Origin: Heliocybe sulcata
Lineage: Eukaryota; Basidiomycota; Agaricomycetes; Gloeophyllales; Gloeophyllaceae
Direction of reading: 5' to 3'
Assembly (NCBI GenBank): GCA_004369045.1
Contig: ML213503.1
Location: forward strand, 3,017,697 to 3,081,696
Length of the DNA stretch: 64,000 nt
Notes under the pieces: model-generated
The model's input: only the letters and a program-made list of their open reading frames with translations
What the model was told of the DNA's origin: nothing
Database searches by the model: none
Translations under genes and position numbers: made by a program
In this document: positions 40,414-63,893 of the stretch, in pieces
Layout: each line of letters begins with the position of its first letter
How positions within the stretch are numbered: the first letter of the stretch is position 1

Positions 40414-42585
40414 ATGCCACCGGACGCAGTAGCGGCGCCCTCTGCGCTCCCAACCACCACTCGCGTTACCAGGTCGGGCATTCGACACTCGCTTAGCCTA
40501 GCGTCGGTTGGCAAGGCCCTCGCAGACGTGATGAACATGTCCGACCCCAAAGGCGGAGGCGGCGACGAGCGCTCGACGAAGAGGCCCAAGGAGAAAGAGG
40601 GGGCCTCGAAGCGCGGGAGCGGGCTCGCGATGGGCACGGTGAAAGGCAAGGAGGCCCCCAAGCCTGTCTTTGCGGAGAAGGCAGCCAGGAACACGCCGTC
40701 GCCAGAGGTAAAGACCATCGCGAGGAGGACGCGCTCAGCATCGGCTACTAGCAAGACTGGGTCGTCGTCGTCCGAGGAGCAAAGTGGGAGTGACGTCAAG
40801 AAGAGCGGACTGACCCCGCCCGGTATCGCGCCCGTTACGCGCACTTCGTCGCTTAGGGCGAAGAGGGCGCCGGCGTCGACAGCACTACCCAAGTACCAAC
40901 CGAAGGGTAGGCTTGAGACCATCAAGGAGCCACCGTCCCCTCCCCGCAAGGCTGCTCGGAAGAGGGCCAACAGCAGTACTGACGATGATAAGGAGGCACC
41001 CAAATCTGCTGGCCTCGAGCCTCCCGAGCCGTTGGAGAGGCCTGAGAGAGCTATCAGCCCCCTCCCCAAGCGCGCCGCGTTCAACCTCTCCAGTGCTATG
41101 AGGGTCACTCCGAGACCCTCGACCCCTACAAAGAAAACAGTCAAGGGGACTGCTCCATCTCGTCCGACTCCGACTCCGAAGGAGTCTCCACGGTCTCTGA
41201 GGGTTAAGAGCGAGGACACCGCTCCGAAGAAACCCGCCGATCGACCGACTTCAGCCGCATCTTCCGCTAGCTCTGTACGTATGCGCACACCAACTACTCC
41301 CCCTTCCACCTTCCGCTCAGCCTTCGGCTTGGGCAAAGCCAAGTCATCGCAACCAGGGAGCCCGTTGCGTAAAGTTGCTAAGGAGTCATCCGCGACCGCA
41401 TCCCCCACCAAACCTACTAAAACCGCTAGCACCAAAACCGTTTTGAGCAAGAAGGATGCTAATCCCACACCCGCTAACACAGTTAACCTCGGAGATACCA
41501 GCACGGACAGCATGGATGCAGACGACGTCGAGTATATGCTCTCCCAGTCTGTCATCTCGCGCACCGCTCCGACCCCGGCGATGCCACGCTTCCGTCCACG
41601 TCCCACCGCCCGCGCTCCCAACGCGAGGAGCATCTTCCCCGAGACCCCAGCTCGCGCAGCAGGCCGCTCGGACGCGTTCCTGGCCCCGCCCGGCGCCAAA
41701 GACGACTCGCCCCTGTTCCCCCGCGTATCCAACATCTCCGCCCAGAACCGCCAGTCCATCCTTTCCTGGGAGCAGCTAGCTGCCTCCGGCAATCAGTCGC
41801 TCGGAGAGGAGGAAATCGGGCACATGCTGTCGGAGGTGCAGGCGCCCTTCAACGCGTCGTCGATGCCAAGCCCCATGGCGAGCCCCATGCGCCTTAACCT
41901 CGAGCTGCCCGACAGCCCGATGCTGAGCGCGCTGCCGTCGCCCGGCGGGTTCACGTCCATCTCGCAGGTGCTTCTCCCGACAGGCGGTACGCCGTCGCCT
42001 GCGATGCACACCACGCAGCTGTATGAGAATATAGGCCTCGTGCCGGAGATGCCGGAGATGCCTGCGGTGGACGGGGCAATCCTTACCCTCCTCCGGCTGC
42101 AGCTGGCCAGTGCGGAGCAGCAGGCGCAGGAGCGCGCTGCGCGTATTGGGGAGCTGGAGAGTCAGCTACGAGAGGCGCAGGAGTTGAGAGTGCGCGAGGA
42201 GGAGGCGGTCGCGCGGCAGATGAGCCAGCTGGAGGAGCAGCTCAGGACGTCCCTTTCTGTCCGCGATAAGGCGAATGAGGAGAAGGAGGCGTACATTAAT
42301 ACGCTGCACGAGCAGCTTAGTCAGGTGGAGGCCGCCCGCGAGCAGGCCGTTCAGGAAGCCGTGGGGGAAACTCAGGCAAGCGCCAAGGCTTCGTACACCG
42401 CAGCACTCTCGTCCCACAAGAAGCAGTGTGAACTCATCAGCCTTGCAACGGGCATTACTGCTCGATGGGTCAATGTTGTGGACGTCGCAGAAGGCGAGCT
42501 TGAGTTTGTGCGTTCTTCAAAGGAGACACTATCTACTCTCTTGGCTGGCCTGGCTGCCACCCAGAAGCACTTACGATCTCTGTGA
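40414..42585 (+). CDS. Uncharacterised 723-residue disordered/coiled-coil protein
   Basis: Single uninterrupted ORF, unusual beside intron-rich neighbours. ATG at 40414 (MPPDAVAAPSALPTTTRVTR). Residues 1 to about 530 are low-complexity, rich in Ser, Thr, Pro, Lys and Arg with many Ser-Pro/Thr-Pro sites (for example TPTKKTVKGTAPSRPTPTPK), suggesting CDK-type phosphorylation. Short conserved-looking pieces include DADDVEYMLSQSVISRTAP, RQSILSWEQLAASGNQSLG and GEEEIGHMLSEVQAPF. From about residue 555 a long coiled coil begins (LTLLRLQLASAEQQAQERAA, RIGELESQLREAQELRVREE) and continues to the end. Composition and position next to SPC7 hint at a cytoskeletal or mitotic role, but no family is recognised. 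Confidence 0.8.
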   Translation: MPPDAVAAPSALPTTTRVTRSGIRHSLSLASVGKALADVMNMSDPKGGGGDERSTKRPKEKEGASKRGSGLAMGTVKGKEAPKPVFAEKAARNTPSPEVKTIARRTRSASATSKTGSSSSEEQSGSDVKKSGLTPPGIAPVTRTSSLRAKRAPASTALPKYQPKGRLETIKEPPSPPRKAARKRANSSTDDDKEAPKSAGLEPPEPLERPERAISPLPKRAAFNLSSAMRVTPRPSTPTKKTVKGTAPSRPTPTPKESPRSLRVKSEDTAPKKPADRPTSAASSASSVRMRTPTTPPSTFRSAFGLGKAKSSQPGSPLRKVAKESSATASPTKPTKTASTKTVLSKKDANPTPANTVNLGDTSTDSMDADDVEYMLSQSVISRTAPTPAMPRFRPRPTARAPNARSIFPETPARAAGRSDAFLAPPGAKDDSPLFPRVSNISAQNRQSILSWEQLAASGNQSLGEEEIGHMLSEVQAPFNASSMPSPMASPMRLNLELPDSPMLSALPSPGGFTSISQVLLPTGGTPSPAMHTTQLYENIGLVPEMPEMPAVDGAILTLLRLQLASAEQQAQERAARIGELESQLREAQELRVREEEAVARQMSQLEEQLRTSLSVRDKANEEKEAYINTLHEQLSQVEAAREQAVQEAVGETQASAKASYTAALSSHKKQCELISLATGITARWVNVVDVAEGELEFVRSSKETLSTLLAGLAATQKHLRSL

Positions 42586-60928: not shown

Positions 60929-63355
60929 GGCAAGGCAAGGCAGATGGTGGTAGTCGCGTAGTAAGAATGAAATTAACATCCGACGCGTCCATATACGCGT
61001 ATGAGCCTGCCCTAAGTCTTACGTAACCTGCTCTGGCGCCTAGGCGTCTAAGCGCCCGTAGTTCAAGTCTCTCCTTCACCTCTTCCTGAGTCCTGACTTC
61101 TGCTTCGGGCCCTGCGCTAGTCCTTGTCCCGTATAGAACTTAATCTTAGTACTGTCTGGGCAAGAAGCTCTCGGGTCCGTCTACTAGGTCATTTTGAACT
61201 CTACTCGGGACATATCCTCCTACTGGCACTGCACTTTCCTGAACACTACCTTCTCCGGCTATCATGTTCCGTATAGCTGTGCCAGCTCAACTTTTCTGAT
61301 GAAACCGTGTGCTTGTGGCTCTATAAACAGATTCTGGTCTACCTGCCAATCGGGCCGTAATGGAATGGTCCGCACTTCCTGCATTTATCGCCCTGATTAA
61401 CACTTCACGTCCTTTCTTGACGAACGTGCTAGAGGGGCTATCATTGTTGGGCCACTTCCCATCCATGTGTCTTGTCCTCGCTGGCTTAATGGCCTCCAAT
61501 CGCAAGGGTCTCGGTTCCAAAAGTACATGCGCGAAAATACATTCCAGAGCGCAATACTGCTGCCGATGTTCCGTTCTGCATCGCTAGGGACATCATCCAC
61601 TCAAGTCTGGTCATCGCAATACCGTGTATGCTCCTAGGCGTGCTTCTCGCTTACGTCGGTGCTGTATTCTTATATGCGCAAGGGTCTGGGCGATCTCAGT
61701 CGGTTGTTATCAGCCATTCCTTATCGTTCTGACAGGTCCCTCAAACGAGACAGTCTTTCTAGGGCTCGGGCAGGGACGTGAGTGTGGTGTTTCGTTTGTC
61801 AGCCAGACGCCAGAAATACTTGAGGTACCTTCAAACTTTGTGTCGGTCCTTCGGATCCAGCGCCACATTGATAATCTATGATCGTAGCCGGCCCTGTTCT
61901 CAACAAGCACACGACACTCTCAGCTAACCCGTATGGAGACTTCTACTCCATGCGGGACTTGTTTGGATCCCAAAATACAGCGAATGACGCGACGGTATGC
62001 CAGCAGACAATTAATCAAACCGCTCCCTTGGTCTCCCACCATTGCCATCCTTCTTCATCTCGGCGCGGTAGCACTTCGGCGATGAAAGCTTCATGTTCTT
62101 GTGAATTCTCCCCCCTGGCGACCGCATGCTTGTTTAGCATGCGAGCGCGACGGGTCAGCGTTCTACGCTTGGGATACAAACTTTGCGGACCCAATCAAGA
62201 AGCATCTCCCTGCCTCCTTAACTCCCGCTGCTCGTCCCGTGGTGGCAGATGATGCGGGACTTGATATGATTGGAGTGCGTCTCCCTTGCCTAACTGGACC
62301 GGAGGATGCTCGAAACTTTGCGGAGCAAGGTTGATTGGCTGCTCCCGCCGGTACAGTGCCTTCTCTTCTTCTGTTACGTTCGAAGCGTCCTGTCAGAGGT
62401 ATCCAAAGCACCAATACCCATGGCGCCTATTCGAGGCGGCCTGATCTGACATTGGTTCAACCCTGCTGGGGGTGGTCTAGTTTTCTCCGATGATGTAGTG
62501 GCTTGCGTTGGCGTGAGTATATCGACGTTTCCTGATCCTCTCTATTGGCGCATGCGGCCATGGCTATTCATATGCAGTTATTTTGGGTACGCCCGCCACC
62601 ATTGGTACTGCCCGCAGAGCATTCACATCCATACTCTCCGACCAACACGGATGGACGAGTAGAACGTCCTGGAAAGCAGCGATGTTGCCTGAGTGGGGTA
62701 TGCCCGTGGCCGCCCCACCGAGGTGCGCGACGCGACGCGATCGAACCAGTCAGGGCATCGTCTCCACGAAGGCGGTCGGGCAGGCACAAGAAGCGCAGAG
62801 ATACCCTTCGGCAGATCTTTCAAATTCATCTGGATTATAGAAAACGGGGTAAAGAGGACACCATATACATTCATCTAGAGCTGTCCTCGGCGATAGTGCC
62901 AGGAAAGTGGATTGCAGATGGTAGTACATTGGAAGGATATAAAGGAAAAATAACTACTAACTAATGGCAACACTAACACCGATAACTACTAGGTGAAGAA
63001 GATACTCGAACAATCCAGCGCTGTACACCAATCCTGAACGTGAAGCCACAGATCGCAATGGTAAGGTAGCGGATGGGGCAATAGAAGAGGGGATGGGGTA
63101 GGATGGATAGGGTGATTTGAAAGAATGTGCGGGTGCCTAAACACTTGGACAATCTCTGAGGAGATCGCCACGAAACAGGACCAGAATCCGGGATAAGGGT
63201 GCCTCCATGAGCAAGAGGAGAGGCCTTTGTAAGATGTGAGTCCGATCAGCATTCATAGCAGTTGTCTATAAACGCCGAACCTTATGGTTAGAGGCATTGA
63301 CCATGAGGCACAAGGCACACTCTCACCTGCTGAAGCCTGGCTCGTCGACAACCAA
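60929..63355. other. 2.4-kb stretch of decayed or unresolved coding-like sequence
   Basis: No clean gene found. Plus-strand islands with coding flavour appear in changing frames: SLVIAIPCMLLGVLLAYVGA (hydrophobic, near 61610), SANPYGDFYSMRDLFGSQNT (61920), ACERDGSAFYAWDTNF (62125) and FNPAGGGLVFSDDVVACVG (62460). They may be exons of one intron-rich plus-strand gene or pieces of a relic; I could not connect them and recognise no family. Nothing here looks like a UstYa-type (DUF3328) oxidase. The right end is the 3' flank of the repeat-precursor gene. Confidence 0.35.
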
Positions 63356-63893
63356 TTACCAATCCGTACCGGGGGCGGGCTCGCGCTTCCAGTCCGTCCC
63401 GCGCCTCCAGTCGGTACCAGGCGCAGGCTCCCGACGCCAGTCGGTGCCCCGCTTCCAGTCCGTCCCCCGCTTCCAGTCGGTACCAGGCTCAGGCTCGCGC
63501 TTCCAGTCGGTGCCGGGCTCGGGCTCCCGACGCCAGTCGGTGCCGCGCTTCCAGTCGGTCCCCCGCTTCCAGTCAGTGCCAGGCTCGGGCTCACGTCTCC
63601 AGTCGGTGCCAGGTTCTGGCTCGCGTTTCCAGTCAGTGCCACGCTTCCAGTCGGTGCCTCGCTTCCAGTCGGTACCCCGCTCCTCCTGCAAGAGTATACA
63701 GGTAAGAAATGATGACCGGACAGCACAAGAGAAGCACGTACAATCACAGCAGATGCATCAGCCTCTGGCGTCTGTATTTTTACGTCAGAACGGCGTGCAG
63801 ATTATGGTCAGCGGCAGGACGTACGGGTAGGCCGTTGGCCAGGACGGCAAAGAGAAGGAAAAGTAGGGTGAGGTAGGTCTTTGAGAGGAACAT
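63356..63893 (-). CDS. Secreted KEX2-processed repeat precursor (14 GTDW units), RiPP-like
   Basis: Predicted 142-residue secreted precursor. Exon 1 (63825-63893) encodes a signal peptide [19 protein letters not shown] then NGLP; exon 2 (63742-63771) encodes [10 protein letters not shown]; exon 3 (63356-63685) encodes EER then fourteen GTDW cores. Introns 63772-63824 and 63686-63741 are canonical GTACGT...CAG. Cores are separated by KR (nine) or RR (four), dibasic sites for Kex2-type proteases. Eight units are bare GTDW; six carry EPEP (four) or EPAP (two) before GTDW; the last ends at Trp and the stop. No Cys, no CaaX box. This is the architecture of fungal KEX2-processed repeat proteins, including dikaritin precursors such as UstA; in those families cores are excised and may be cyclised. 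No tailoring gene is visible here; the window ends 107 nt upstream of the ATG. Confidence 0.85.
63359..63679 (-). repeat. Coding minisatellite of 18-nt and 30-nt units
   Basis: Fourteen in-frame repeats of GGNACNGACTGG-type units (Gly-Thr-Asp-Trp), 18 nt (GTDWKR) or 30 nt (EPxPGTDWKR). Third-position differences between units show that the peptide, not only the DNA, has been kept. Confidence 0.9.

Follow-up and report, generated by a model that had tools for sequence, protein, structure and literature searches.

The minus strand of the window (the whole 64,000-nucleotide stretch of DNA analysed here) carries a real gene, apparently unannotated and of an already known kind, for a precursor protein in which the tetrapeptide GTDW is repeated fourteen times. 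We consider it likely that this precursor belongs to the Kex2-processed repeat proteins (KEPs), and among them to the alpha-factor-like type with a Ste13 signature; it would release linear GTDW, most likely as an extracellular signal.

Gene architecture and coding strand

The GTDW precursor gene is predicted to comprise three exons (Table 1). The highest sampled Kyte-Doolittle mean in its leader is 2.63 (residues 10-20), and on hydropathy the N-terminal signal peptide expected of a KEP is predicted. KEPs also carry three or more similar units split by KR or RR, and here there are 14 units with 13 dibasic junctions. The initial annotation had described a signal peptide, a pro-segment, 14 GTDW cores with KR or RR between pairs and a stop after the final Trp, and all of these were recovered on the minus strand (the signal peptide by hydropathy).

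Table 1. Features of the GTDW precursor gene, in positions of the window
Feature	Position	Strand	Basis
GTDW precursor gene, three predicted exons, 142 aa	63356-63893	minus	
Exon 1: ATG at 63893, hydrophobic leader (~residues 1-21) and LP (23 residues)	63825..63893	minus	sequence, hydropathy
Intron 1: 53 nt, GT..AG, phase 0	63772..63824	minus	predicted from sequence; by eye, same site in the C11 gene
Exon 2: 10-codon pro-segment	63742..63771	minus	
Intron 2: 56 nt, GT..AG, phase 0	63686..63741	minus	predicted from sequence; by eye, same site in the C11 gene
Exon 3: EER, then core array, then TAA stop at 63356-63358	63356..63685	minus	
Array: 14 GTDW cores and 13 KR/RR junctions, 6 followed by an EPEP or EPAP spacer	63359..63676	minus	

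The junctions between cores are KR in nine cases and RR in four; by type, seven are plain, four carry EPEP and two carry EPAP. Before the first core there is one Arg and no dibasic site, and the stop codon directly follows the Trp of the last. Proline occupies every second position in all six spacers, and the Ste13 signature (X-P or X-A after a dibasic site) is found at 6 of the 13 junctions, as well as in 6 of 15 pieces of a paralogous gene on contig C11 described below. EPEP was at first taken for length variation of the core. EPEP and EPAP are probably X-Pro spacers cleared by a Ste13-type dipeptidyl peptidase rather than parts of longer cores, in which case all 14 units would yield GTDW. 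The array is no chance product: the window has 12 GAYTGGARRMG sites where 0.81 would be expected (maximum of 3 over 100 shuffles), and 11 of these sites lie inside the array. Compared with Pfam, the precursor gave one match, Trypan_PARP, at 19.4 bits where the cut-off is 100; apart from this sub-cutoff match Pfam recognised no pheromone domain, and no NCBIfam family was found.

Variation among the 14 cores is confined to the third positions of the Gly, Thr and Asp codons. Pairwise comparison gives 125 synonymous and no non-synonymous differences, counts that are not independent because the units are related by duplication; the odds that three variable core sites would hit precisely those synonymous positions are 1 in 220. 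Such synonymous-only variation speaks against a drifting minisatellite. The initial annotation saw in it selection on the peptide, and the part of this claim that stands is support for coding. The choice of strand does not follow from it, since an antisense frame scores equally well: over 13 units of 18 nt, pN/pS is 0.13 in the antisense frame and 0.17 in the GTDW frame, and the antisense changes are likewise mostly synonymous because, by the code table, the third codon positions of the two frames coincide. This antisense frame (window 63297-63830, plus strand, 177 aa) reads 'QSVP...' and is probably incidental.

That the coding frame is something other than GTDW, with the array being a non-coding minisatellite or part of a plus-strand gene with a QSVP-type repeat, is a reading to which we give very little credence, even though the plus-strand frame is open for 177 aa and its units vary mostly synonymously. 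We chose the minus strand because of its leader, introns, stop position, C11 paralog and annotated relatives. The minus frame combines a leader, two predicted introns and a Trp-stop end in a layout that recurs in the C11 gene; its units are always spaced by 18 or 30 nt, with core variation at third positions; and the relatives found in the protein database are translated in the DWKR frame, an N-terminal hydrophobic leader being visible by eye in 13 of the 21. According to excerpts of one study, -DW peptides of relatives have been detected by mass spectrometry (PMC9769878).

A paralog in the genome and relatives in other fungi

The genome searched comprises 31.6 Mb on 51 contigs, with the GTDW gene on contig C1. 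A paralogous precursor lies on the minus strand of C11 (~378.43-379.03 kb; L006 4833-5431) and has three exons in phase 0, laid out by eye as in the GTDW gene. Its 15 cores are ASDW (six), GSDW (three) and GGPDW (six), its end is again Trp-stop, and one junction, KREEEKR, falls outside the X-P/X-A rule. A gapped DNA pattern for repeated DW-[KR]R matched the genome 26 times (10 on C1, 11 on C11 and 5 isolated) and its reversed control 6 times; the repeated pattern is confined to two loci, C1 and C11 (21 of 26 matches). We also scanned for further repeat precursors, counting as such any single open frame in which three or more four-residue core ends are identical. The two known genes served as positive controls, and no further precursor was found in eight UstYa and eight STE3 loci (L009-L024, ~3.3 kb each) or in L004, L005, L007 and L008.

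Searching a protein database with the spliced GTDW precursor returned seven proteins at E values up to 10. A profile search, with scoring limited to the 8000 candidates that had most words in common, gave 20 proteins: 6 that the profile already contained and 14 that it did not, 10 of those 14 at E < 1e-3. The search for fungal proteins with repeated GTDW-like cores suggested by the initial annotation thus recovered -DW relatives, one of them from an ascomycete and others from mushrooms. Their cores include NTDW/GTDW in Rickenella, GTDW in Auriscalpium, NAPDW in Lentinula and QADW in Leucocoprinus, all four Agaricomycetes; the ascomycete, Rhizodiscina lignyota, has GQTDW. The Rhizodiscina repeat protein (P0014) is encoded on a 1.3-Mb contig and closely resembles the mushroom proteins. 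A DW-stop C-terminus is present in 8 of the 23 proteins compared, that is, the GTDW and C11 precursors and 21 relatives (P0001-P0021, which include P0007, a probable chance match at E 2.7); as it was words in common, DWKR for example, that brought the relatives into the set, DW itself is no independent evidence. Neither spliced protein was returned as a self match in the protein-database searches, so both are probably unannotated in that database. Elsewhere in the window, the protein encoded at 40414-42582 aligns over 99% of its length, at 71% identity, with a protein from Neolentinus lepideus (Gloeophyllales), while its remaining long-stretch matches reach at most 43% identity.

Proposed processing and alternative readings

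By the rules for such sites and by comparison with the relatives, the leader would route the precursor into the secretory pathway, Kex2 would cleave after each KR or RR, Kex1 would strip the basic residues to leave a free C-terminal Trp, and a Ste13-type dipeptidyl aminopeptidase would take off EP-EP or EP-AP, giving up to fourteen copies of the linear tetrapeptide GTDW per precursor. The calculated [M+H]+ values are 478.193 for GTDW, 930.384 for EPEPGTDW and 872.379 for EPAPGTDW; the ASDW of the paralog would be isobaric with GTDW but differ in its y3 ion (407.156, as opposed to 421.172 for GTDW). Our grounds for proposing the Kex2 and Kex1 steps are the dibasic sites and the last core, which finishes in Trp-stop; neither in the GTDW gene nor in the C11 gene is that core followed by KR, and it ends as Kex1 would leave it. 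The earlier proposal that the gene encodes a repeat precursor cut by Kex2 into short cores ending in Trp accordingly finds support, at the level of sequence, in the dibasic junctions, the Trp-stop end and the C11 paralog, and by analogy with known systems the predicted processing is well supported. One match to the kexin P-domain (C3) and one DPPIV_N locus (C17) were found in the genome, each indicating presence of the family rather than orthology. Excerpts of PMC9769878 put the number of kex2 genes in C. cinerea and further agaricomycetes at three, so our kexin search was probably incomplete, and report that an XA/XP motif was removed from one Coprinopsis precursor when expressed in Pichia. 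GTDW itself is most likely a linear secreted signal, acting on the fungus itself or on other organisms. The same source reports no phenotype on knockout of six kep genes in Coprinopsis (PMC9769878), which weakens the case for an essential self-signal.

A different fate of the core had been suggested by the initial annotation, which linked the gene to dikaritins (ustiloxin, phomopsin, asperipin) and UstYa. The GTDW precursor does share a leader and Kex2-separated repeats with these, and as a dikaritin-like RiPP its units would be cross-linked or cyclised by UstYa-type oxidases. The genome contains at least 18 UstYa exon matches (PF11807), and such enzymes might act unlinked to their precursor. 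According to excerpts of the KEP survey, 76 KEPs show homology to six putative basidiomycete pheromones, and 17 of them have a UstYa-type gene within 15 genes, as do 103 of 1680 KEPs of all Basidiomycota (PMC7329392); some members of the class may therefore be modified. None of the at least 18 matches is on C1, however, and the one on C11 is ~620 kb from the paralog. The core, unlike those of dikaritins, has no Tyr; UstYa-linked KEP types may carry HH, or W with P, instead (excerpts of Umemura 2020, PMC7329392). The peptides of the -AADW relatives are described as linear (PMC9769878). With no RiPP tailoring enzyme among the flanking ORFs tested either, the dikaritin link is not supported, and we regard it as very unlikely.

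The neighbourhood was assessed by running Pfam on 27 selected flanking ORFs of C1, a part of all ORFs there. No RiPP tailoring enzyme was identified among 7 ORFs on the left (to ~9 kb) or 15 on the right (to ~18 kb), the latter being the side beyond the window end on which the initial annotation had suggested looking for such genes. The left side has genes for an MCM helicase and a RINT1/TIP1-like protein. On the right, no Pfam family was recognised in 6 tested ORFs of the first ~10 kb, beyond which WD40, Myb and SGTA-like genes follow, together with a Prp19-type WD40 match below cut-off; an OPT transporter, a TauD-like dioxygenase and a weak, below-cut-off MFS match lie at ~19-26 kb. The OPT oligopeptide transporter gene (L005 982-3172; C1 ~3.1007-3.1029 Mb) is ~19-21 kb from the precursor, with unrelated-looking genes between. 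OPT transporters carry tetra- and pentapeptides. Ten ORFs tested around the C11 paralog included an FMN oxidoreductase ~0.7 kb off its 3′ end and a FAD-binding match ~14 kb away. As a separate observation, UstYa matches form groups on C2 (322-332 kb), C6 (1030-1038 kb), C10 (843-848 and 1016-1018 kb), C22 (29-34 kb) and C5 (554-556 kb), candidate dikaritin-like clusters unlinked to the GTDW gene; within ~3.3 kb around eight of the 18 matches no repeat precursor was found.

The leader, KR sites and X-P/X-A spacers are shared with alpha-factor precursors, and the ascomycete alpha-pheromones follow the same Kex2, Kex1 and Ste13-spacer logic. We nevertheless regard an alpha-factor-type mating pheromone as highly improbable: the core is unrelated, and mating pheromones of basidiomycetes are a-type (excerpts of PMC6339444 and PMC9769878). 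Receptor matches of STE3 type occur on C11 and C16, while no STE2 match was found in a search run without a positive control; the GTDW gene is on C1, and its paralog lies ~420 kb from the STE3 group of C11. Neither that STE2 search nor the position relative to the candidate mating locus lent support to a mating reading. The several STE3-type matches (C11 798-837 kb and C16 132-133 kb) mark a candidate mating-type region and fit a basidiomycete. It is likewise most improbable that GTDW is a self-assembling or structural surface peptide such as those that Ustilago maydis makes from Rep1. This protein, too, contains repeats and is processed by Kex2 (PMC7329392, PMC9769878), but excerpts of PMC6339444 describe it as missing the Ste13 signature, and four residues would be very short for assembly of this kind.

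Relation to known systems and implications

Our preferred reading of the GTDW gene, as a Ste13-signature KEP, places it beside published basidiomycete precursors. The initial annotation called basidiomycete examples of dikaritin-like precursors poorly described, which overstated the novelty, as basidiomycete Ste13-signature repeat precursors, and -SDW and -AADW cores, have been published (PMC6339444, PMC9769878). Conserved basidiomycete KEPs with XSDW repeats have been reported, and Ste13-signature KEPs have been argued to be candidate hormones (excerpts of Le Marquer et al. 2019, PMC6339444). The XSDW group resembles the GTDW precursor in its Kex2-separated tetrapeptide ending in DW, and occurs in one ectomycorrhizal species and in saprotrophs. 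Compared by the described motif, all 14 GTDW cores fall outside the group, having T in place of S, whereas 9 of 15 cores of the C11 paralog (the ASDW and GSDW units) match it and the other 6 are GGPDW. The linear peptides SGVAADW, MSGVAADW, LSGVAADW and SGTGEASAADW were identified by mass spectrometry in fruiting bodies of Lentinula and Pleurotus (excerpts of Vogt et al. 2022, PMC9769878). These KEPs of Lentinula edodes and Pleurotus share the C-terminal DW and Kex2 sites, with Ste13 motifs in the Pleurotus precursors, but the detected cores have 7 to 11 residues and GTDW, predicted from its gene, has 4.

We found no literature report of a fungal GTDW core among the matches listed. MiSSP8 of Laccaria bicolor, reportedly a DW-type repeat, can be likened to the GTDW precursor by description rather than by sequence; it is a symbiotic effector, whereas the host of the GTDW gene looks related to Gloeophyllales, which cause wood decay. 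MiSSP8 likewise has a Kex2-processed repetitive precursor, its knockdown strongly impairs mycorrhiza formation (PMC7329392), its importance for mycorrhiza is noted repeatedly (PMC7329392, PMC7105643, PMC8708209), and its repetitive motif is present in saprotrophs too (PMC7105643). We also considered the most widespread KEP type of Umemura, G-1/P-2, which is represented in Gloeophyllum, Heliocybe and Neolentinus; its repeats are described as Tyr-rich (excerpts of PMC7329392), and GTDW therefore probably lies outside it.

One broader hypothesis, which we put forward tentatively and consider rather unlikely as it stands, is that GTDW belongs to a widespread set of minimal secreted mushroom hormones with a free C-terminal Asp-Trp. 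The residues before DW (GTDW, ASDW, GGPDW, NADW, QADW, GQTDW and others) would then diverge between paralogs and species as specificity codes for a receptor, and the set would reach at least one ascomycete lineage (Rhizodiscina).

Genes for -DW precursors can be missed, given that neither of our two returned a self match and that the KEP survey left out proteins whose repeats were all shorter than 8 residues (excerpts of Umemura 2020, PMC7329392); the longer units of the GTDW gene reach 10 residues with KR, so this gene might have passed the limit. With a four-residue core that is the same in each of the 14 units, the gene lets one predict the exact mature product and synthesise it. Two paralogs with differing cores in one genome would allow a direct test of -DW signalling and of the specificity of the residues before DW.
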